Assembly (NCBI GenBank): GCA_009712185.1
Contig: WASQ01000042.1
Location: forward strand, 1-64,000
From: Telmatospirillum sp.
Lineage (GTDB): Bacteria; Pseudomonadota; Alphaproteobacteria; Rhodospirillales; Magnetospirillaceae
Direction of reading: 5' to 3'
Length of the DNA stretch: 64,000 nucleotides
A program made the translations under genes and the position numbers. Positions within the stretch are counted from its first letter, which is position 1. Every line of letters starts with the position of its first letter. Positions 21,272 to 32,292 of the stretch are shown here, one piece after another. The notes under the pieces are model-generated. The model was not told where the DNA came from, searched no databases, and was given only the letters and a program-made list of their open reading frames with translations.

Positions 21272-22648
21272 TCAGAAAAATTCCAACCTGACGGAGAACA
21301 TTTTTTCGACCTTCTTCACCGCATCGGTGGCGGCGAACAGGACGACGCGATCACCGCTCTGCACCACCGTGGTCCCGCGCGGGCTGATCACCTTGTCATT
21401 GCGGACCACCGCGCCCAGCAGGACTCCGGTCGGCAGCTTGATTTCCTTCAGCGGCTTGCCGACCAGCGGCGACGTCTCCATCGCGTCCGCCTCGATCAGT
21501 TCGCCGAACCCCTCATGGATCGAATGGACGGAATGGATGCGGCCGCGCCGGACGTGATGCAGGATGTTCGAAACCGTGATCGCGCGGGGACTGATCACCA
21601 CGTCGATCCCGAGCGTGCTCATCAAAGGCGCGTAATCGGTCTTGTTGACCAGCGCCATGACCCGTTTGGCCCCATGGCGTTTCGCCAGAAGCGCCGACAG
21701 AACGTTCGTTTCGTCGTCGTTGGTCACGGCCACAACGGTTTCGGCGGCACCGACGTTGGCCTCCTCCAGCAGGGCGGAGTCCAGAACATCACCATTCAGA
21801 ACCAGACTGTCGGGCAAATTCTTGGCAACCTGTTCCGCGCGAGACCGGTCGGCCTCGATCACCTTGACGCCACAGCCGTTCGGCAAGGTGGCAATCTGCT
21901 GGGCCAGGAACTGGCCGATATTGCCGCCGCCGAAGATCACCACGCTGCGGGCTTCCGGCTCCTCATGGCCGAAAGCGGTCATGGCGCGACGGATATGCTG
22001 GGTATCCACGACGAAGAGAACCTCATCGCCGGCCAGCATCTGGTCCTCGGCCGAAGGAACGATCGCGCGGCCGTCGCGCACGATGCCCACGACGACGATA
22101 TTGAGATCCGGGAAGAGCACCGTCAGTTGCCGGAGCGGCGTATTGACGAGCGGCGTGTCCTCGGTGCAGCGCACGCCGATCAGGCGGACCTTGTCGCCAG
22201 CCAGCGGGATCACCTCGATGGCGCCGGGCACCTGAAGGCGCCGGATGATCGACCGCGCGACTTCGATTTCAGGGGAAATGATGACATCGATGGGCAGATG
22301 ATCCGGACTGAAGAGATTGGCCCAGATCGGCTGCAAATAGCTCTGGCTGCGCACGCGCGCGATCGTGGTCGGCACGTTGAACAGCGAATGCGCAACCTGG
22401 CAGGCAACCATATTGACCTCATCGGCCGCGGTCACCGCGATCACCATGTCGGCATCCGCCGCCCCCGCCTGCTCCAGAATCGGCGGATGGGAGGCGTGAC
22501 CCAGGACACACTGCACTTCGAGCGTATCGCTCATTTTGCGGATCAGGTCCTGGCGCTGATCGATGACGGTGACGTCGTTATCCTCGTTCGAAAGATAACG
22601 CGCGATATTGAAGCCGACCTGGCCCGCGCCGCAGACGATGACTTTCAT
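21272..22648 (-). CDS. trkA: Trk potassium uptake NAD-binding regulatory protein TrkA
   Basis: 458 aa with duplicated architecture: TrkA_N (GAGQVGFNIARYL, residues about 7-19), a TrkA_C half, a second Rossmann unit (FGGGNIGQFLAQQ) and a second TrkA_C. It binds NAD(H) and gates the TrkH/TrkG K+ channel on the inner face of the membrane. trkA downstream of ntrX is the usual order in this group of bacteria. No trkH lies in the window. Confidence 0.97.
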   Translation of the reverse strand: MKVIVCGAGQVGFNIARYLSNEDNDVTVIDQRQDLIRKMSDTLEVQCVLGHASHPPILEQAGAADADMVIAVTAADEVNMVACQVAHSLFNVPTTIARVRSQSYLQPIWANLFSPDHLPIDVIISPEIEVARSIIRRLQVPGAIEVIPLAGDKVRLIGVRCTEDTPLVNTPLRQLTVLFPDLNIVVVGIVRDGRAIVPSAEDQMLAGDEVLFVVDTQHIRRAMTAFGHEEPEARSVVIFGGGNIGQFLAQQIATLPNGCGVKVIEADRSRAEQVAKNLPDSLVLNGDVLDSALLEEANVGAAETVVAVTNDDETNVLSALLAKRHGAKRVMALVNKTDYAPLMSTLGIDVVISPRAITVSNILHHVRRGRIHSVHSIHEGFGELIEADAMETSPLVGKPLKEIKLPTGVLLGAVVRNDKVISPRGTTVVQSGDRVVLFAATDAVKKVEKMFSVRLEFF

Positions 22649-22749: not shown

Positions 22750-24138
22750 TTACGAACGCGCCTTCTCGTCGGAACTGACGCCAAGAGATTTCAATTTCCG
22801 GTGCAACGCCGACCGCTCCATCCCGACGAATGTGGCCGTCCGGGAAATATTGCCCCCAAACCGGGTCACCTGCGCCAGAAGATATTCGCGTTCGAACACC
22901 TCCCTCGCCTCGCGCAGAGGCAGCGTCATGATCTCGCTCGACTTTTCCCAGCGCAGGACGGCCGGTGTGATGGCGCCGATTTCAGGCGGCAACATGTCCG
23001 CCCGCATCGGTTCCCGGCTGTCGCCGGGCGCCATGATCAGAAGCCAGTCCATCACATTGCGCAGTTGCCGGGCATTACCGGGCCAGTCATAGGCCTGCAG
23101 GGCCGCCATCGCATCCTCGGCGATCAACCGGCTGGGGAGCCCCGCGCTCTGCGCCGAGCGTTGCATGAAATGGTTGGCTAACAGGGGAATGTCCTCGCGC
23201 CGTTCGCGAAGCGCCGGCAGGCGCAAGGGAACGACATTCAGCCGGTAATAGAGATCCTCACGGAACCGGCCGGCGGCGATTTCCGTCGGCAGGTCGCGGT
23301 TGGTGGTCGCCATCACCCGGACGTCAACCTCTACCCGGCGGCCGCCGCCGACCCGCTCGAACGTCTGCTCCTGCAGGACCCGCACGATCTTGCCCTGGGT
23401 TTCGAGCGGCATGTCCGCCACTTCGTCCAGCACCATGGTCCCGCCGTGCGCCTGCTCGAACGTCCCGACCTTGCGCTCCCCCTCCGGCATCGATTCGATG
23501 CCGAACAGTTCCGCTTCCATCCGCTCGGGATGCATCGCGGCGCAATTGACCACCACGAAGGGACCGCTGGCCCGCTTCGACAGCCGGTGCAGCATACGGG
23601 CCACCACTTCCTTGCCCACACCGGCCGGACCGGTGATCAGCACGCGAGATCCGGTCGGCGCCACCCGTTCGATGGCCTGCCGCAGATGGTTGATCGCCGA
23701 GGAATGGCCCAGCAACTCCTCGTCGCCCCCGGCGCGCTGCTTCAATTCCTCGATTTCACGGCGCCGGCGCGCGGACTCGATCGCGCGCGCCACGGCCAGC
23801 AGCAGACGATCGGCCTGGAACGGCTTTTCGATGAACTCGTAGGCGCCCTGCTTGATGGCGGACACCGCCGTCTCGATGGTGCCATGGCCGCTCATCATCA
23901 CGACCGGAACGGTCGGATGGTGGCGTTTGATTTCGGTCAGGATGCCAAGACCGTCGAGCCGGCTTCCCTGGAGCCAGATATCAAGCAGGACGAGGCTTGG
24001 CCGGCGACCCCGGATCGCTTCCAGGGCGGCGTCACTGTCCGCCGCCTCCCGCGTCTGATAGCCTTCGTCGCCCAGCAGGCCGGCGACCAGGGAGCGGATG
24101 TCCGCTTCGTCGTCGACGATGAGAATGTCATGCGCCAT
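22750..24138 (-). CDS. ntrX: Nitrogen/redox response regulator NtrX
   Basis: 462 aa: receiver (acid pocket DDEAD, phosphoacceptor Asp in LVLLDIWLQGS near residue 55), AAA+ domain and C-terminal Fis-type helix (GGNISRTATFVGMERSALHRKLKSLG). The Walker A is ITGPAGVGKEVVAR. The region where sigma54 activators carry GAFTGA reads ESMPEGERKVGTFEQAHGG, so the sigma54-contacting loop is missing, as in other alphaproteobacterial NtrX proteins, which act on sigma70-type promoters. Its start overlaps the ntrY end by 11 bp. Confidence 0.97.
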   Translation of the reverse strand: MAHDILIVDDEADIRSLVAGLLGDEGYQTREAADSDAALEAIRGRRPSLVLLDIWLQGSRLDGLGILTEIKRHHPTVPVVMMSGHGTIETAVSAIKQGAYEFIEKPFQADRLLLAVARAIESARRRREIEELKQRAGGDEELLGHSSAINHLRQAIERVAPTGSRVLITGPAGVGKEVVARMLHRLSKRASGPFVVVNCAAMHPERMEAELFGIESMPEGERKVGTFEQAHGGTMVLDEVADMPLETQGKIVRVLQEQTFERVGGGRRVEVDVRVMATTNRDLPTEIAAGRFREDLYYRLNVVPLRLPALRERREDIPLLANHFMQRSAQSAGLPSRLIAEDAMAALQAYDWPGNARQLRNVMDWLLIMAPGDSREPMRADMLPPEIGAITPAVLRWEKSSEIMTLPLREAREVFEREYLLAQVTRFGGNISRTATFVGMERSALHRKLKSLGVSSDEKARS

Positions 24139-26380
24139 GAAGATTCACCGTGTCCGTCGCCACGATGGCAGGATTGTCGTCCTCGGTCCGGAAGACAAGG
24201 CTGACATGGGCGCCACCGCCCTCGGCATCCTCCATCACCAACTCACCTCTATGGTCTTCCATGATTTTTTTCACGATGGCAAGGCCCAATCCGGTTCCTT
24301 TCACTCGCGTCGTCACATAGGGTTCGGCAAGCCGGTCCCGCAATTCAACGGGAAGGCCGCGACCATTGTCCTTGACCGAAACGACAACACTTCCCATTCG
24401 GTGCCCGATCTCCACGGTGATTTTCCCTCGCGGCAGGTTGTCGCCCTGCCGTCCTTCGATCGCCTCGACGGCGTTTTTCAGCAGATTGGTCATGGCTTGG
24501 CCGATCTGCCGGACGTCACAGGGAATTGTCACAGGCTCATTGGGGAATTGGCAATCAAAACTGACACTGGGATAGCCCGTCCTGGCAAGGAAAACCGCCT
24601 GCCGGATCACGTCGATGAGATCGTCTGTCTTCATGATCGGCGCCGGCATGCGCGCGAACGATGAGAATTCATCGACCATCCGGCCAATATCGCCAACCTG
24701 GCGGATGATCGTATCCGTGCAGTTGAGGAATGTTTCCGGATCCGTTTCAATCTGCTTCAGATATTTTCTCTTCAGACGTTCGGCCGAGAGCTGAATCGGC
24801 GTCAACGGATTCTTGATCTCATGGGCGATGCGGCGCGCGACGTCGGCCCAGGCAGCCTTCCGCTGCGCCGACAAAAGTTCCGTGATGTCGTCGATCGTGA
24901 CAACGAATCCGGTCACGTCGGCATCGTCCTGCTCCGCCACGATCCGCACCAGCAGGGCGCGGGTCCGCCCCTTGCGGAAGACCTTCAGTTCATCCTGGAC
25001 AGGACGGTCGGGCCGACGGCAAACGGCGGAGAACAGCGCCTCGACCTCCGGGAACATGGCGGTCAAAGGATTTCCCGCCATTGTCTCTGCGTCGAGCGAC
25101 AGATATTCGGCGGCGTAACGATTGGGCAACTCGACAATACCGGCACGGTCGAGACCGATGACGCCGGCGGAAACACCGGCCAGAACCGCCTCTGTGAACC
25201 GGTTGCGCTCATCCAGTTCCCGATTGGCGTCCATCAGGTCCTGACGCTGGGTTTCAAGCTGGCGCGTCATGCGGTTGAAGGCCCGGCTCAACGACCCGAG
25301 TTCGTCGGCCGATCCTTCCTCGGCCACGCGCGCGGTCATGTCGCCGCCCCGGATCCGCTCCGCGGCGTCGATCAGCCGCACGATCGGCGTGGCGAGCTGA
25401 TTGGCGAGAGTGAGGCCGACCCACATGGCCGCCAGCAGCAACAGCAGGGCCACCAGCACAAAAATCGCCGAAAAGGTCAGTTCCAGCCCGGAGCGGGTCA
25501 GTTCGAGCTGCTTATATTCGGCGACCGCGCGACTGGTGCGATCCATATGGTCGATCACCTTCGGATCGACCGCCCGGCCAACATAGAGATAGACATCGAT
25601 CAGGCTGGCGCTTTCCAGCTTGACCAGGGCGCGCACACGCTGATCACCCGAATTGGTCAGGACCGCCACCTCGCCCGACCGCGCCCGTTCGATCGCCCAG
25701 TTGGGAATGCTGTCGATCGACAGTTCCATAGAAAAGGCGAGCCCGGCGCGGGCCAGGATCTGGCGCGACGCATCGAAGACGATGGCTTCGGACAGACCGC
25801 GCACCGCGGCCTGCGCGCCCACGATCTGGGTCAGCCGGTAGGGATTGCGAAACAATCCGGGCCCCTCGCGCGCCAGATCGTTCGCCATCGCCAGGGCATC
25901 ACCGCCGATGACCTGCTGATGTTCCTCCAGATAGGCTTTGGCCACCGCGAGGGACTCATCAACCGCCGTGCTGACACGGCGGTTGAACCACTGCTCGACG
26001 CCGAAATTGATCACCAGAGTCGAAAAGACCGCGACCAGGATGGCAGGCGTGATCGCCACCACGGAGAACATCAGGACCAGCCGCACATGCAACTTCGACC
26101 CGGCGGCGCCGGCCCGACGCTCCGCCCACACGCGGACCAGCCGCCGGCCGATCAGCGCGGCCAGCAGCAGCATGAACACCATGTCCACGCCCAGCATGGA
26201 GAACACGGTCCGGGGGTTCGGCCCCTTCAAAGGCCCGCCGCCGGTAACCACGGCATAGGTGGCCATCCCCGAGGCCATCACCGCCAGGGCCAGAACCAGC
26301 ACAAGCTGGCGAGCCGTCCCCGGCCTCTGCCACCAGAGTCTGAGGCGTTCCGTCACTGTCCGCGGGCCGTTCGCTTCCAT
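24128..26380 (-). CDS. ntrY: Sensor histidine kinase NtrY
   Basis: 750 aa membrane kinase. Two or three N-terminal membrane helices (LVLVLALAVMASGMATYAVV, then VDMVFMLLLAALIG) and a periplasmic domain precede a further helix, then HAMP (TPIVRLIDAAERIRGGDMTARV), PAS, HisKA with phospho-His in IAHEIKNPLTPIQLSAERL, and HATPase (NLLKNAVEAIEG, DNGRGLP, GTGLGLAIVKKIMEDH). It phosphorylates NtrX in response to nitrogen and oxygen or redox status. ATG26380 is preferred over TTG26416. Sits between ntrC and ntrX in one long operon. Confidence 0.96.
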   Translation of the reverse strand: MEANGPRTVTERLRLWWQRPGTARQLVLVLALAVMASGMATYAVVTGGGPLKGPNPRTVFSMLGVDMVFMLLLAALIGRRLVRVWAERRAGAAGSKLHVRLVLMFSVVAITPAILVAVFSTLVINFGVEQWFNRRVSTAVDESLAVAKAYLEEHQQVIGGDALAMANDLAREGPGLFRNPYRLTQIVGAQAAVRGLSEAIVFDASRQILARAGLAFSMELSIDSIPNWAIERARSGEVAVLTNSGDQRVRALVKLESASLIDVYLYVGRAVDPKVIDHMDRTSRAVAEYKQLELTRSGLELTFSAIFVLVALLLLLAAMWVGLTLANQLATPIVRLIDAAERIRGGDMTARVAEEGSADELGSLSRAFNRMTRQLETQRQDLMDANRELDERNRFTEAVLAGVSAGVIGLDRAGIVELPNRYAAEYLSLDAETMAGNPLTAMFPEVEALFSAVCRRPDRPVQDELKVFRKGRTRALLVRIVAEQDDADVTGFVVTIDDITELLSAQRKAAWADVARRIAHEIKNPLTPIQLSAERLKRKYLKQIETDPETFLNCTDTIIRQVGDIGRMVDEFSSFARMPAPIMKTDDLIDVIRQAVFLARTGYPSVSFDCQFPNEPVTIPCDVRQIGQAMTNLLKNAVEAIEGRQGDNLPRGKITVEIGHRMGSVVVSVKDNGRGLPVELRDRLAEPYVTTRVKGTGLGLAIVKKIMEDHRGELVMEDAEGGGAHVSLVFRTEDDNPAIVATDTVNLHGA

Positions 26381-26438
26381 CTTCCCTATCCGCGGCCGAA
26401 CGCCCCCGGGCCGCAAAAGCCCGGGGATGCAATGCCGG

Positions 26439-27881
26439 TCATTTCAAACCGCGCACGACCTGGATATCGAGATCCTTGATCTTCTTGCGCAAGGTGTTCC
26501 GGTTCAATCCCAGCACCTGGGCCGCCTTGATCTGGTTGCCGCGCGTGGCCTCCAGCGTCAGCGTGATCAGCGGGCGTTCGATCTCGTGCAGGACGCGGTC
26601 ATACACTCCGGCGGTCGGCAGACCATCGGTATGGGCGGCGAAATATTCCCGCAGATGCCGCTCCACCGTCGCGCTCAGCCCCTCGCTTTCCGGCTGTGCC
26701 GGCGGATCTCCGGCGGCAACGGCGCTGGAAAGCTCGGCTTCGACGACCTCGATCCCGATGACTTCCTGGGAATAGAGCGCGGCCAAGCGGCGCACCAGAT
26801 TTTCGAGTTCGCGCACATTTCCCGGCCAGCGATGGCGCTTCAGGCGTTCCATAGCCAGCGAATCGATCGTCTTGGACGGCAGCCCTTCCGAGGTCGCCAT
26901 GGACAGAAAATGCCGCACCAGTTCGGGAATGTCCTCCGTCCGTTCGCGAAGCGGCGGCAGACGGATCGGCACCACATTGAGGCGGTAGAACAGATCCTCG
27001 CGGAACAGTCCCTGGCGGATCAACTGGGTCAGATCACGATGCGTGGCGGCAACGATGCGGACATTGGCCTTAATCGGCGTCCGGCCGCCGACCGTTGTAT
27101 ATTCGCCTTCCTGCAAAACCCGCAAAAGCCGGGTCTGCGCCTCGGGTGGCATGTCCCCGATCTCGTCCAGGAACAGGGTCCCGCCCTCGGCCTGTTCGAA
27201 ACGGCCCGACGCGCGCTGAGTGGCGCCGGTGAAGGCGCCCTTTTCATGTCCGAAGAGTTCGCTCTCGATCAGTTCGCGCGGAATGGCCGCCATATTGATG
27301 GCGACAAACGGCCCGTTGCGCCGCTTGCCGTAATCGTGCAGCGCGCGGGCCACCAGTTCCTTGCCGGTCCCGGATTCGCCGGTGATCATCACCGACAGAT
27401 CGGTTCCCATCAGGCGGGCCAGGGTCCGGTAGATCTCCTGCATGGCGGGTGAACGCCCGATCAGCGGCAGTTCTTCCTCGCCGTCGGCGGCCGCGTCCTC
27501 GCTGGCCGGCGTCTTGGCCGCCGCCAGCGCCCGCTGGACGACCCCCACCAGTTCGCGGATATCAAAAGGTTTTGGAAGATACTCGAACGCGCCGCGCTGC
27601 GCCGCCTTGACGGCCGTCAGCAGGGTGTTCTGCGCGCTCATGACAATGATCCGGAGATCGGGGCGGATCTTTTTGATGCGCGGCAACAGGTCGAGACCGT
27701 TCTCGTCAGGCATCACCACGTCGGTGATAACCAGATCGCCCTCGCCGTCCGACACCCAGCGCCACAGGGTGGCGGCATTGCCGGTGGTGCGCACCTCATA
27801 ACCGGCGCGTCCAAGGGCCTGCGACAGAACGGTACGGATGCCGCGGTCGTCGTCGGCAACCAGGATGGTCGATGGGATCAT
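26439..27881 (-). CDS. ntrC: Nitrogen regulation response regulator NtrC
   Basis: 480 aa: receiver (DDDRG, phosphoacceptor Asp in [13 protein letters not shown]), AAA+ domain with Walker [10 protein letters not shown], the sigma54-binding loop EKGAFTGA, Walker [14 protein letters not shown], and a Fis-type HTH ([24 protein letters not shown]). Once phosphorylated by NtrB it activates sigma54 promoters for nitrogen assimilation. ATG overlaps the ntrB stop (TGATG). A palindrome resembling its binding site lies upstream of dusB. Confidence 0.98.
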
Positions 27882-28999
27882 CAGGCGTCCTCTCCGTTCT
27901 GGACCATCGGCAGCATCACACGGAAGACGGTGCGCCGGGGCTGGCTGTCGACCTCAATCAGGCCACCGTGGTCGCCGATGATCTTCGCCACCAGCGCCAG
28001 CCCCAGTCCGGTGCCGTTGGCTTTCGTGGTCACGAAGGGATCGAACAGATGGGGCCGAAGATCGCCGGGAATGCCGTTGCCATTGTCCTGGACGGACACT
28101 ACCAGGGGCAGATGCATCCTGCTTTCGCTGCCAGGCACGGCCAGGCGAACGCCATGCTGGAAAGACGTGGTCAAGACGATTTCCCCTCCTTCCTCGGGAG
28201 CGGCCTCGGCCGCGTTTTTCACGAGATTGAGGAAGACCTGGATGAGCTGGTCGCGGTTACCCAGAACCGACGGCAGCGACGGATCGTAGTTTTCGACAAA
28301 GCGCAGATGCCGCCCGAATCCGGCCTGGGCAATGCGCCGGACATGTTCCAGCACACGATGGATATTGACACCGCCCCGTTCGATCGGCTGTTCGTCGGAA
28401 AAGACTTCCATCCGGTTGACCAGGGCGACGATGCGGTCCGCCTCGTCGCAGATCAGCCGGGTCAGGGTTCTGTCCTCAGGCGAACAGCTCTGCTCCAGAA
28501 GCTGGGCCGCGCCACGGATCCCGGACAATGGATTTTTGACCTCATGGGCCAGGATCGCCGCCATCGCCGTCACCGATCGCGCCGAATTGCGGTGGCTGAG
28601 CTGATGGCCGATCTTGAGGGCGATCGATTGCTCATGCATGGCGATCACCATGGAATGGCTCATCTCCACCAGCGGCGAGATCTGGATGTTCATCGTCCTG
28701 GCCCCGGTCCGGGGGCTGTCCAGGGTCATTCCGTATTCGGAGACATTGGTCGCTTCGGCCCGGGCCTGATCGATCAGGGCGAAAAGCGGGCAGTCCGGCG
28801 GTAGAAATTCGGTCAGAGCCCGGCCACACAGATAGCTCGCGCTCGATTCGAACAATTGTTCGGTTGCGGCATTGACCTGCCGGATCACACCCTCGTCGTC
28901 CAGCACCACCACCGCGGCCGTCATGGCGTTCAACACCGTCATGGCGTCGGTCAGGGGGGGGCTGGAGCGGCGACCGAGAACTGCCAATTTGCGACTCAT
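27881..28999 (-). CDS. ntrB: Nitrogen regulation sensor kinase/phosphatase NtrB (GlnL)
   Basis: 372-aa cytoplasmic kinase without membrane segments: N-terminal PAS domain ([22 protein letters not shown]), HisKA with phospho-His in [21 protein letters not shown], and HATPase ([40 protein letters not shown]). It is controlled by PII and phosphorylates NtrC. ATGA overlap with dusB upstream and a TGATG overlap with ntrC downstream show tight coupling of dusB-ntrB-ntrC. Confidence 0.98.
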
Positions 29000-29982
29000 G
29001 CGGCCAACCGTTGCAACAGCGGATCGTAAAATTCACGGATCATGCGCCGGACCTGATCCGCCTCCAGCGACTGGTTGACCGCGGCACGGAATTCCGCCGA
29101 TCCCGCAAGCCCCTTGGTGTACCAGGCGACATGTTTGCGACCCAGCCGGCAGCCCGTATCCTCACCGTAATGCTCGATCATGGCGTCGAAATGTTCGAGC
29201 AGAACGGCCAACTGGGTGGCCAGCGGCGGATCTTCCGGCCGCTGGCCGGTCCTCAGATATTCGGCGACCTGTCCAGGGAACCAGGGACGCCCATAGCTGC
29301 CGCGCCCGATCATCACGCCATCGGCGCCGGATTGCTCCAGAAGTGCCCTGGCATCGTCGAAATCCGTGACGTCGCCATTGCCGATCACCGGAATCGAGAC
29401 CGCGTCCTTGACCTGACGGATGAATCCCCAATCCGCGTGGCCGGTGTAGAGCTGGCTGCGGGTCCGGCCGTGCACGGTCACCATCTGGATCCCGGCGTTT
29501 TCCGCGATCCGGGCCAGCGCCGGGGCGTTCCGGTTGCGCTCATCCCAGCCGGTCCGCATTTTCAGCGTCACCGGGACGGGAACGGCCTTCACCACGGCGT
29601 CGAGAATCCGTCCGGCCAGGGCCTCGTCCTTCATGAGCGCCGATCCGGCATCCCCATTGACGACCTTTTTGACCGGGCAACCCATGTTGATGTCGATGAT
29701 GGCCGCGCCCCGGTCGACATTCATCTTCGCCGCCTCGGCCATCACCTCCGGCTCGCAACCGGCCAGTTGGACCGCCATGGGAAATTCCTCGGCGCAACTT
29801 GTCGACATCTTCATGGTCTGACGATTGGCGCGGATCATCGCCTGGCTGGCGATCATTTCCGAAACCACCAGCCCGGCGCCGCAGCGTTTGACCAGGCGGC
29901 GGAACGGCAGATCACTGACGCCGGACATCGGCGCCAGGACGACGGGATTATCGAGAGTAAGGGGACCGATCCTGAGGGGCAT
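28996..29982 (-). CDS. dusB: tRNA-dihydrouridine synthase DusB (NifR3)
   Basis: 328 aa FMN TIM-barrel enzyme reducing uridines in the tRNA D-loop. It has the N-terminal LAPMSGVSDLPFRRLVKR, the catalytic Cys in NMGCPVKKVVNGDAGSAL, MRTGWDE, VHGRTRSQLYTG and GNGDV. First gene of the dusB-ntrB-ntrC-ntrY-ntrX-trkA run, as in Rhodobacter nifR3-ntrBC. A 19-bp perfect palindrome lies 26 bp before its start. Confidence 0.98.
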   Translation of the reverse strand: MPLRIGPLTLDNPVVLAPMSGVSDLPFRRLVKRCGAGLVVSEMIASQAMIRANRQTMKMSTSCAEEFPMAVQLAGCEPEVMAEAAKMNVDRGAAIIDINMGCPVKKVVNGDAGSALMKDEALAGRILDAVVKAVPVPVTLKMRTGWDERNRNAPALARIAENAGIQMVTVHGRTRSQLYTGHADWGFIRQVKDAVSIPVIGNGDVTDFDDARALLEQSGADGVMIGRGSYGRPWFPGQVAEYLRTGQRPEDPPLATQLAVLLEHFDAMIEHYGEDTGCRLGRKHVAWYTKGLAGSAEFRAAVNQSLEADQVRRMIREFYDPLLQRLAA

Positions 29983-30007: not shown

Positions 30008-30026
30008 GTGCATAATAATTATGCAC
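30008..30026 (-). promoter_or_regulatory. Perfect 19-bp palindrome, candidate NtrC operator over the dusB-ntrBC promoter
   Basis: GTGCATAAT-A-ATTATGCAC is a perfect dyad. Its core TGCATAATAATTATGCA is 17 bp with TGCA at both ends, the spacing of the known NtrC box TGCACC-N5-GGTGCA. On the minus strand it overlaps a possible -10 (TAATTA/AATTAT) placed 16-17 bp after TTGCGG. NtrC binding there would repress its own operon. Confidence 0.6.
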
Positions 30027-30089
30027 CTCCCCCACCGCAACGCCAAAAGTAAGGTCCCCCAAAGAGGGAACGGCGGAAAACAGCCCGTT

Positions 30090-30896
30090 TTATGCCCAGG
30101 CCAGCACCACCTGATGAACAAATTTTACGCCGAAAAATCCCAGCACCACAAAACTGTAGGCCACCAGAACGACCCGCGCGGCGATCTGTCCGCGGACGCC
30201 GCACACACGCCGCCCCACGAGCAGCAGGGCGATGGTGACAAAGGCGATCACCGAAAACAGCGATTTGTGGTCGAAAGTGAAGGCGCTGCCGGTTTCCAGG
30301 CGCTTCATGGCGAGGCCGGACGCGACGCCGAAGGCCAGGATGACCTCGGCATAGATCAGAAGACGCTCGAACAGCCGTTCGCTGTCCGTGACGGCCGGCA
30401 GAAAACGTGACAGCCGTGTCGGCCGCTTGATCTTCAGCGCCCGGGCCTGGAGAAACGAGGCCAGCGCGGCGGCCGCGGCCACCGTCAGGAAAGCCAATGT
30501 CACCATCGACACCAGGATATGCAGATCGAGCCACCCGGGCGGCATCGTATCTTTCAGCGGTTCGCCGGGAACGAAGGAGAACATCGCGGCAAACAGGCCC
30601 AGGACAATCATGTAGGGCACCATCAGCGGCGTCAGCCTCCAGGCATGCCGGCTGATCACCGCAACAATGCCGAACACGGCCATGCTTCCGGCGATCCCGG
30701 CCCAGAGGTCGGCGGACAGATTGGTCTGCCACCCGTTGCTCTGTTGCCCCAGAGCCCAGGCAAGCGGTCCGGCCACGGCCAGAAAGAGTCCACCCCAATA
30801 CAGTGCATCACGGCCGGCGGCCCGCCTGAGCGGCAACAGGGCGACCGGAACCAGGGCGAGCAGAGCCGCCACATTCGAGACGATGACGTTCAACAT
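30090..30896 (-). CDS. CcsA/YpjD-type cytochrome c assembly family membrane protein
   Basis: 268 aa with about eight hydrophobic helices. The family-specific part is the C-terminal half, with W and His residues in PGWLDLHILVSMVTLAF and FDHKSLFSVIAFVTIALLLVG, corresponding to the heme-handling region of CcmC/CcsA/YpjD proteins. YpjD-like members are usually called inner-membrane or cytochrome c assembly proteins; direct evidence for heme delivery by this subfamily is thin. ATG30896 begins the first helix. It lies 107 bp upstream of dusB on the same strand. Confidence 0.85.
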   Translation of the reverse strand: MLNVIVSNVAALLALVPVALLPLRRAAGRDALYWGGLFLAVAGPLAWALGQQSNGWQTNLSADLWAGIAGSMAVFGIVAVISRHAWRLTPLMVPYMIVLGLFAAMFSFVPGEPLKDTMPPGWLDLHILVSMVTLAFLTVAAAAALASFLQARALKIKRPTRLSRFLPAVTDSERLFERLLIYAEVILAFGVASGLAMKRLETGSAFTFDHKSLFSVIAFVTIALLLVGRRVCGVRGQIAARVVLVAYSFVVLGFFGVKFVHQVVLAWA

Positions 30897-31140: not shown

Positions 31141-32292
31141 ATGGCGCGGTGTGTGGCTTTGGTGGTGGCGGCGGGCCGGGGAAGCCGTTTCGGGGGCGAA
31201 TTGCCCAAGCAATGGTGCGATCTGCATGGCCGCCCGGTGCTGCGCCACAGCCTCGCCGCCTTCGCCGCCCATCCGGGTGTCGATGCGGTCCGGGTGGTTA
31301 TTCACCCCGACGACCGCGCGTTCTATGACCGTGCCGCCGCCGGTCTCAACCTCGGCGAGCCGGTCGCCGGCGGCCCGACCCGGCAGGACTCGGTCCGGCT
31401 GGGCCTTGAGGCGCTGGAAAAGGACGGTTGCGACATCGTGCTGATCCACGATGGCGCCCGCCCCTTTGTCGATGCCGGCGTGATCAGCCGGGTCATTGCC
31501 GCGCTTGCCGCTCAGCCGGGCGCCATTCCGGCTCTGCCGGTCCATGACACCCTGAAGCGGGCCGATGGCGGCCTCATCGGAGAGACCGTCCCGCGGGCCG
31601 GGCTTTACCGCGCGCAGACGCCCCAGGGGTTTCGTTTCGCCCCCCTGCTGGAGGCCCACCGCGCTGTGATCGGCCACGAACTGACCGATGACGCGGCGGT
31701 CGCCGAAAGCGCCGGCCTGACGGTCGCGCTGGTCCCGGGCAGCGAGGACAATGTCAAGATCACGACGCGCGAGGATCTGCGGCGCGGCGAGGCCAAACTG
31801 GCGATTCCCGGGGACATCCGGGTCGCGACGGGATTCGACGTGCATCGTTTCGGCCCTGGCGATCACGTCACTTTGTGCAATGTGCGGATCCCGCATGACG
31901 CCGGGCTGGAAGGACATTCCGACGCGGATGTCGCCCTGCACGCCCTGACCGACGCGCTGCTGGGCTGCATTTCGGCCGGCGATATCGGCCGCCATTTTCC
32001 GCCGACCGATCCGCGCTGGAAAGGAGCGGATTCGGCCATTTTCCTGGCCCATGCGGGTGCATTGATCGACGGCATGGGGGGCGAGATCGTCCATGTCGAC
32101 CTGACGGTGATCTGCGAACGGCCGAAGGTCGGGCCGCACCGGGCGGCCATGGCCGCGCGCGTTGCCGAAATCCTGGGGATCGAGGAACACCGCGTCAGCG
32201 TCAAGGCCACCACGACCGAGGGACTGGGATTCACCGGCCGGCGGGAAGGCATCGCGGCCGAAGCCGTCGCCACGGTCCGCCGGCCCCGCTGA
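31141..32292 (+). CDS. ispDF: Bifunctional IspD/IspF (MEP cytidylyltransferase and MECDP synthase)
   Basis: 383 aa fusion for the non-mevalonate isoprenoid pathway. IspD occupies about residues 1-225: VVAAGRGSRFGGELPKQW nucleotide loop, GPTRQDSVRLGL, IHDGARPFV and TPQGFR. IspF follows: GFDVHRFGPGDHVTLC with Asp/His metal ligands, EGHSDADVALHALTDALLG, and the C-terminal TTTEGLGFTGRREGIAAEAV. Fusion of the two is common in alphaproteobacteria. ATG31141 follows GGAG at about 9 nt; ATG31134 is out of frame. Confidence 0.98.
   Translation: MARCVALVVAAGRGSRFGGELPKQWCDLHGRPVLRHSLAAFAAHPGVDAVRVVIHPDDRAFYDRAAAGLNLGEPVAGGPTRQDSVRLGLEALEKDGCDIVLIHDGARPFVDAGVISRVIAALAAQPGAIPALPVHDTLKRADGGLIGETVPRAGLYRAQTPQGFRFAPLLEAHRAVIGHELTDDAAVAESAGLTVALVPGSEDNVKITTREDLRRGEAKLAIPGDIRVATGFDVHRFGPGDHVTLCNVRIPHDAGLEGHSDADVALHALTDALLGCISAGDIGRHFPPTDPRWKGADSAIFLAHAGALIDGMGGEIVHVDLTVICERPKVGPHRAAMAARVAEILGIEEHRVSVKATTTEGLGFTGRREGIAAEAVATVRRPR

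Follow-up and report, generated by a model that had tools for sequence, protein, structure and literature searches.

The dusB-ntrB-ntrC locus and the palindrome that precedes it

We analysed a 64,000-nucleotide stretch of Telmatospirillum sp. DNA (hereafter, the window), in which a dusB gene is followed directly by an ntrB-like gene and ntrC, and then by ntrY, ntrX and trkA. The features of the locus are listed in Table 1. The closest match to DusB among named genomes, 83% identical, was found in a metagenome-derived Telmatospirillum genome. The top NCBIfam match of the ntrB-like kinase was NR(II) with 210.9 bits, which is under the cut-off of 240 for this model. NtrC has the GAFTGA loop at residue 215. 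NtrX, encoded in the same cluster, also carries a Fis-type helix-turn-helix (HTH); when its sequence was searched for GAFTG[AS] or G.FTG, neither pattern was found. The dusB-ntrB-ntrC operon probably runs on into ntrYX, and a putative operon reaching trkA is possible; the gap between ntrX and trkA is 101 bp. In addition, IspD and IspF (YgbB) domains were seen within a single ORF at 31141-32292.

Table 1. Features around the predicted dusB promoter, with coordinates in the window
Feature	Position	Strand	Basis
trkA, possible later gene of the dusB transcription unit	21272..22648	-	NF007031 TrkA
ntrX, response regulator without GAFTGA	22750..24138	-	NF051870, 723 bits vs cut-off 600
ntrY, sensor kinase	24128..26416	-	PF19312 NtrY_N
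ntrC, response regulator with sigma54-activation domain and GAFTGA loop	26439..27881	-	TIGR01818, 731.5 bits vs cut-off 558.6
ntrB-like sensor histidine kinase, between dusB and ntrC	27881..28999	-	PAS-HisKA-HATPase
dusB (nifR3), tRNA dihydrouridine synthase, first gene past the predicted operator	28996..29982	-	PF01207; TIGR00737 nifR3_yhdG above cut-off
Perfect 19-bp palindrome, predicted NtrC operator	30008..30026	.	Sequence, uniqueness, conservation upstream of dusB
TGC-N11-GCA core of the palindrome	30009-30025	.	Sequence
Predicted -10 hexamer CATAAT, within the palindrome, register uncertain	30018..30023	-	Consensus scan; A/T bias, 41 non-redundant dusB sites
Predicted -35 hexamer TTGGCG, 17 bp from CATAAT	30041..30046	-	Consensus scan; TTGC-type elements nearby in relatives (by eye)
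Cytochrome c assembly-type gene, other side of the palindrome from dusB	30090-30896	-	PF01578

The palindrome, GTGCATAATAATTATGCAC, is a perfect 9+1+9 inverted repeat of 19 bp that reads GTGCATAAT-A-ATTATGCAC. It spans -26 to -44 relative to the dusB start, with 25 bp between it and the dusB ATG. Its core has the 17-bp TGC-N11-GCA geometry of an NtrC-binding site, and the central bases are A or T in 11 of 11 positions, confirming the original prediction of a perfect palindrome with NtrC-like 17-bp geometry and an AT-only centre. When the window was searched with the 17-bp core at up to three mismatches, the two matches obtained were both strands of the palindrome itself, and no further copy was found elsewhere in the window; shuffled sequences gave a mean of 0.03 matches (n = 100).

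The 6.1-Mb genome was searched as well. The nearest other match to TGCATAATNATTATGCA carries two mismatches. TGCA-N9-TGCA was found at 25 places vs 15 for the reversed control, TTGC-N11-GCA at 336 vs 272 on the forward and 302 vs 269 on the reverse strand, and TGC-N3-W5-N3-GCA at 15 places vs 9; among the last 15, three lie at genes identified as dusB or P-II. The TGCA-N9-TGCA geometry alone is thus not special, and the motif is weakly enriched genome-wide. Since these counts are near those of the reversed controls, the motif by itself is a weak predictor in this genome, and a genome-wide motif search was rejected as the main proof. The palindrome carries weight because its place, spacing, company and inner sequence are conserved in relatives. 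Two further places in the genome were recorded. The second-best match, TGCTTAATGATTAAGCA at C143:2717-2733 (L002 1501-1517), lies outside the listed surrounding ORFs of at least 110 aa, and a thymidylate synthase ORF begins some 760 bp beyond it. An AT-cored TGC-N11-GCA site at C136:7405-7421 (L167 1501-1517) sits between the divergent genes for alanine dehydrogenase and an Lrp/AsnC-type regulator.

A consensus scan upstream of dusB returned a single sigma70-type promoter, TTGGCG-17-CATAAT, where shuffled sequences averaged 0.1. Its predicted -10 hexamer (30023-30018) falls within the palindrome, in agreement with the earlier claim that the palindrome overlaps the dusB-ntrBC promoter. Note that TTGCGG, a few bases downstream of TTGGCG, is an alternative -35 element, and that CATAAT at the -10 place fits the window, while some relatives read CCCAAT there. 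A terminator-like stem was also seen at 30054-30071 on the minus strand, between the cytochrome c assembly-type gene and the dusB promoter, which agrees with a separate transcription unit beginning at dusB.

Conservation of the site upstream of dusB in relatives

We next compared dusB upstream regions from 110 loci, 80 taken from one DusB search and 30 from a second, which were collapsed by similarity to 91 non-redundant ones. TGC-N11-GCA occurred in the final 80 bp before dusB in 54 of the 91, while the 16 alternative spacings between 4 and 20 each occurred in 1-17 of them over the same 80 bp. In 500 mononucleotide shuffles of the 91 upstream regions, the 11-bp spacing was found 1.07 times on average and five times at most. 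By genome, 55 of the 56 dusB places from 61 genomes searched were retained, our own genome included; G007 was left out as its match begins at residue 66. TGC-N11-GCA was present at -90 to -15 of dusB in 51 of these 55 genomes (other spacings, 0-17/55) and at -56 to -20 in 48. Among the five genomes labelled as the Telmatospirillum genus, again with our own, four have the site at -43; the dusB upstream region of the fifth (G003/L210; 0.9 Mb, DusB 68% identical) is without it. The sites of our genome and L101 are letter-identical over 19 bp despite differing flanks. Absence of the palindrome from the dusB promoters of close relatives, named in the original prediction as evidence against it, was therefore not what these genomes showed (4/5 in the genus and 51/55 overall).

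The site was also more frequent where ntrB follows dusB. Within the final 90 bp, it was found at 68 of 90 loci with ntrB and at 3 of 17 without, three loci being undecidable; this count holds some genomes twice, and the non-redundant one, 51/72 with ntrB vs 3/17 without (Fisher p = 1.4e-4), is safer. The exact site was absent from the final 90 bp at 22 of the 90 ntrB loci, several of which show, by eye, a near match in the corresponding position. The contrast may be confounded by kinship, as the loci without ntrB look to be mostly from distant, AT-rich lineages. Taken with the conserved place and spacing, the association with ntrB rules out a chance palindrome.

Additional copies of the motif were observed upstream of dusB. 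The genus members L102 and L103 have a second TGC-N11-GCA at about -75, 32 bp upstream of the first, and several other loci of the family have a second one near -82. The 11-bp spacing was also raised at -160 to -81 (13/91, vs 0-4 for other spacings). Such doubled sites could possibly act as a cooperative pair.

Sites at P-II genes and the AT-cored form at dusB

The original prediction had expected TGCAT-N7-ATGCA upstream of glnB, glnK and amtB in the same genome. The exact form was not found among the sites upstream of the P-II genes; the relaxed TGC-N11-GCA form was present at two of the three. Specifically, glnB, which has glutamine synthetase downstream, carries a pair of sites at -189 and -168, spaced by 21 bp, together with a sigma54-like element, TGGCACGATGCGTGCT (TGGCAC-N5-GTGCT), at -70, and the second P-II gene carries sites at -237 and -203. 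The motif thus occurs at the expected NtrC targets glnB-glnA and the second P-II gene. No exact TGC-N11-GCA was found within 420 bp upstream of the third P-II gene (L146, C2), where the most symmetric site with one mismatch lies at -157. One amtB (L251) has a single TGC-N11-GCA of weak symmetry, which precedes the first ATG by about 191 bp, and its upstream region gave no sigma54-like match. The other amtB (L250) begins at a contig end, its upstream region being absent from the contig, and is outside this comparison. The upstream region of a second glutamine synthetase locus (L253) is without TGC-N11-GCA. In relatives, 57 glnB-like places at 77% identity or above were collected and one near a contig start (G058) was left out; at least one TGC-N11-GCA was found at -320 to -60 in 43 of the remaining 56, whereas other spacings were found in 1-12.

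We then compared the inner bases of dusB and glnB sites. The 48 loci whose dusB site falls within -56 to -20 were collapsed to 41 non-redundant sites; for loci with several such sites we used the most AT-rich one, a choice that favours an AT-rich result. The 52 distinct glnB sites were not collapsed by similarity, and relatedness among rows makes the p-values too low. With the first T of TGC numbered 0, the dusB sites have A at position 5 (41/41), T at 7 (37/41), A at 9 (36/41) and T at 11 (38/41). The glnB sites have A at position 5 in 24 of 52, and TA at positions 11-12 was found in 28/41 dusB vs 4/52 glnB sites (Fisher p about 6e-10, too small given the related rows). A TANNNT test for a -10 element built into the site did not separate the sets (dusB 14/41, glnB 11/52; p = 0.24), while five other comparisons made alongside it did. 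The dusB sites therefore look like a distinct AT-cored subtype, which is what one would predict were the -10 element made of the same bases, and the inner bases that separate them from glnB sites fit the earlier claim that the AT centre acts as -10 element and operator at once. A stronger form of this proposal is that the dusB operator is a distinct NtrC-site subtype, approximately TGC-M-Y-AATWAWTA-N-GCA, that has persisted across the sampled order and unites operator and -10 element in a single sequence; we put this forward tentatively, giving it slightly less than an even chance. If true, the same bases would tie NtrC autorepression to promoter strength and could be read apart from the enhancer-type sites of glnB.

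Predicted autorepression by NtrC and comparison with known systems

Three lines point to NtrC as the protein that would use the palindrome, namely the company of ntrB, the geometry at expected targets and the GAFTGA loop. Of the two Fis-type regulators of the cluster, NtrC alone has GAFTGA, so that sites upstream of a sigma54-like promoter suggest NtrC rather than NtrX. We consider it likely, from the sequence evidence, that NtrC uses the palindrome as an operator covering the -10 region of the dusB-ntrB-ntrC promoter, and that bound NtrC blocks polymerase at PdusB, resulting in autorepression. NtrC at the palindrome would keep RNA polymerase off PdusB and would thereby limit its own supply, placing the levels of both NtrB and NtrC under negative feedback. 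NtrC binding, repression, the -10 register, the transcription start and how far the operon extends are all features that we infer here. The original prediction of direct NtrC autorepression of dusB-ntrBC is thus supported, at the level of sequence, by the conserved site, the company of ntrB and the geometry at glnB-glnA.

NtrC might bind the palindrome with a main effect other than repression, tuning or activating a sigma70 promoter as reported for some NtrC proteins without GAFTGA. The sign of regulation cannot come from sequence, and PdusB of S. meliloti is more active under nitrogen starvation (PMC10746234). However, the sigma70 activation described in PMC10274813 concerns R. capsulatus NtrC without GAFTGA, whereas the present NtrC has this loop, and a protein bound over the predicted -10 element would be expected to block polymerase; we regard this alternative as unlikely. 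It is rather improbable that another regulator uses the palindrome, for example NtrX or another Fis-type protein. NtrX would be a candidate by its HTH and the place of its gene, but at the paired geometry upstream of the sigma54-like promoter of glnB one would expect an activator with GAFTGA, a loop that NtrX lacks, and the NtrC motif given in PMC10746234 is likewise TGC-N11-GCA. A reading of the palindrome as nothing more than a conserved promoter rich in A and T, or as an RNA hairpin, without any function as an operator, is very improbable: its inner bases do resemble -10 material and the strand can form a hairpin there, but a -10 element has no need of TGC/GCA arms at a fixed N11 spacing, the region folds no better than is ordinary (z = -1.32; equally good or better folding in 19 of 200 shuffles), and transcription starting where the predicted -10 implies would be expected to exclude most of the palindrome from the RNA.

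Autorepression by NtrC, as preferred here, would anchor the self-control of NtrC at the sequence level in this alphaproteobacterial group. The comparison also suggests a difference, readable in the bases, between the repressor-type and the enhancer-type sites of a single regulator. Such a difference would aid the prediction of regulons and work on nitrogen control in laboratory diazotrophs. What separates dusB-type from glnB-type sites throughout the sampled order may be somewhat new.

The locus resembles known systems in several respects. Regulon reconstructions for Proteobacteria have an NtrC core that includes glnA, amtB, glnBK and ntrB/ntrC (PMC5343134). The rhizobial dusB(nifR3/ORF1)-ntrBC operon shares the dusB-ntrB-ntrC order and the TGC-N11-GCA motif, which in S. 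meliloti has an A/T-rich middle, whereas ntrY and ntrX come after ntrC in the present locus. In S. meliloti, binding of NtrC to PdusB was seen by EMSA and autorepression of dusB-ntrBC is known, and PdusB activity rises in nitrogen-starved media, indicating that the promoter is not under a simple off switch (all from PMC10746234, whose reference list includes studies of R. leguminosarum, R. etli and A. brasilense). Compared with the rhizobial operator, perfect symmetry, the AT-only centre and the predicted -10 overlap are features of the present genome and its relatives, although an overlap of operator and -10 element may already have been described in the original rhizobial promoter papers. 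The nifR3-like-ntrB-ntrC genes of A. brasilense have the same order and negative regulation, by the title of Machado 1995. Two Azospirillum loci in our set differ: L025 has three TGC-N11-GCA sites in the final 80 bp of its dusB upstream region, and L033 has a TTGC..GCAG palindrome at -25.

For Paracoccus, ntrBC is said to have a predicted NtrC site (PMC5424462). Against the Paracoccus/RegPrecise consensus from the same paper, (T/C)GC(C/A)N4TTN2T(G/A)GCA, the outer bases of the present site agree and three inner ones differ on the better strand by eye; this consensus is given for a single other organism and may not apply to the Telmatospirillum site. In Caulobacter, NtrC represses the operon that encodes it and contacts DNA directly (PMC10274813); that protein is without GAFTGA, unlike the NtrC of the present locus. 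NtrC autorepression is established for dusB-ntrBC in rhizobia and for the protein's own operon in Caulobacter, so that the predicted dusB operator would represent a known type of feedback and add a new and well-conserved case to it.
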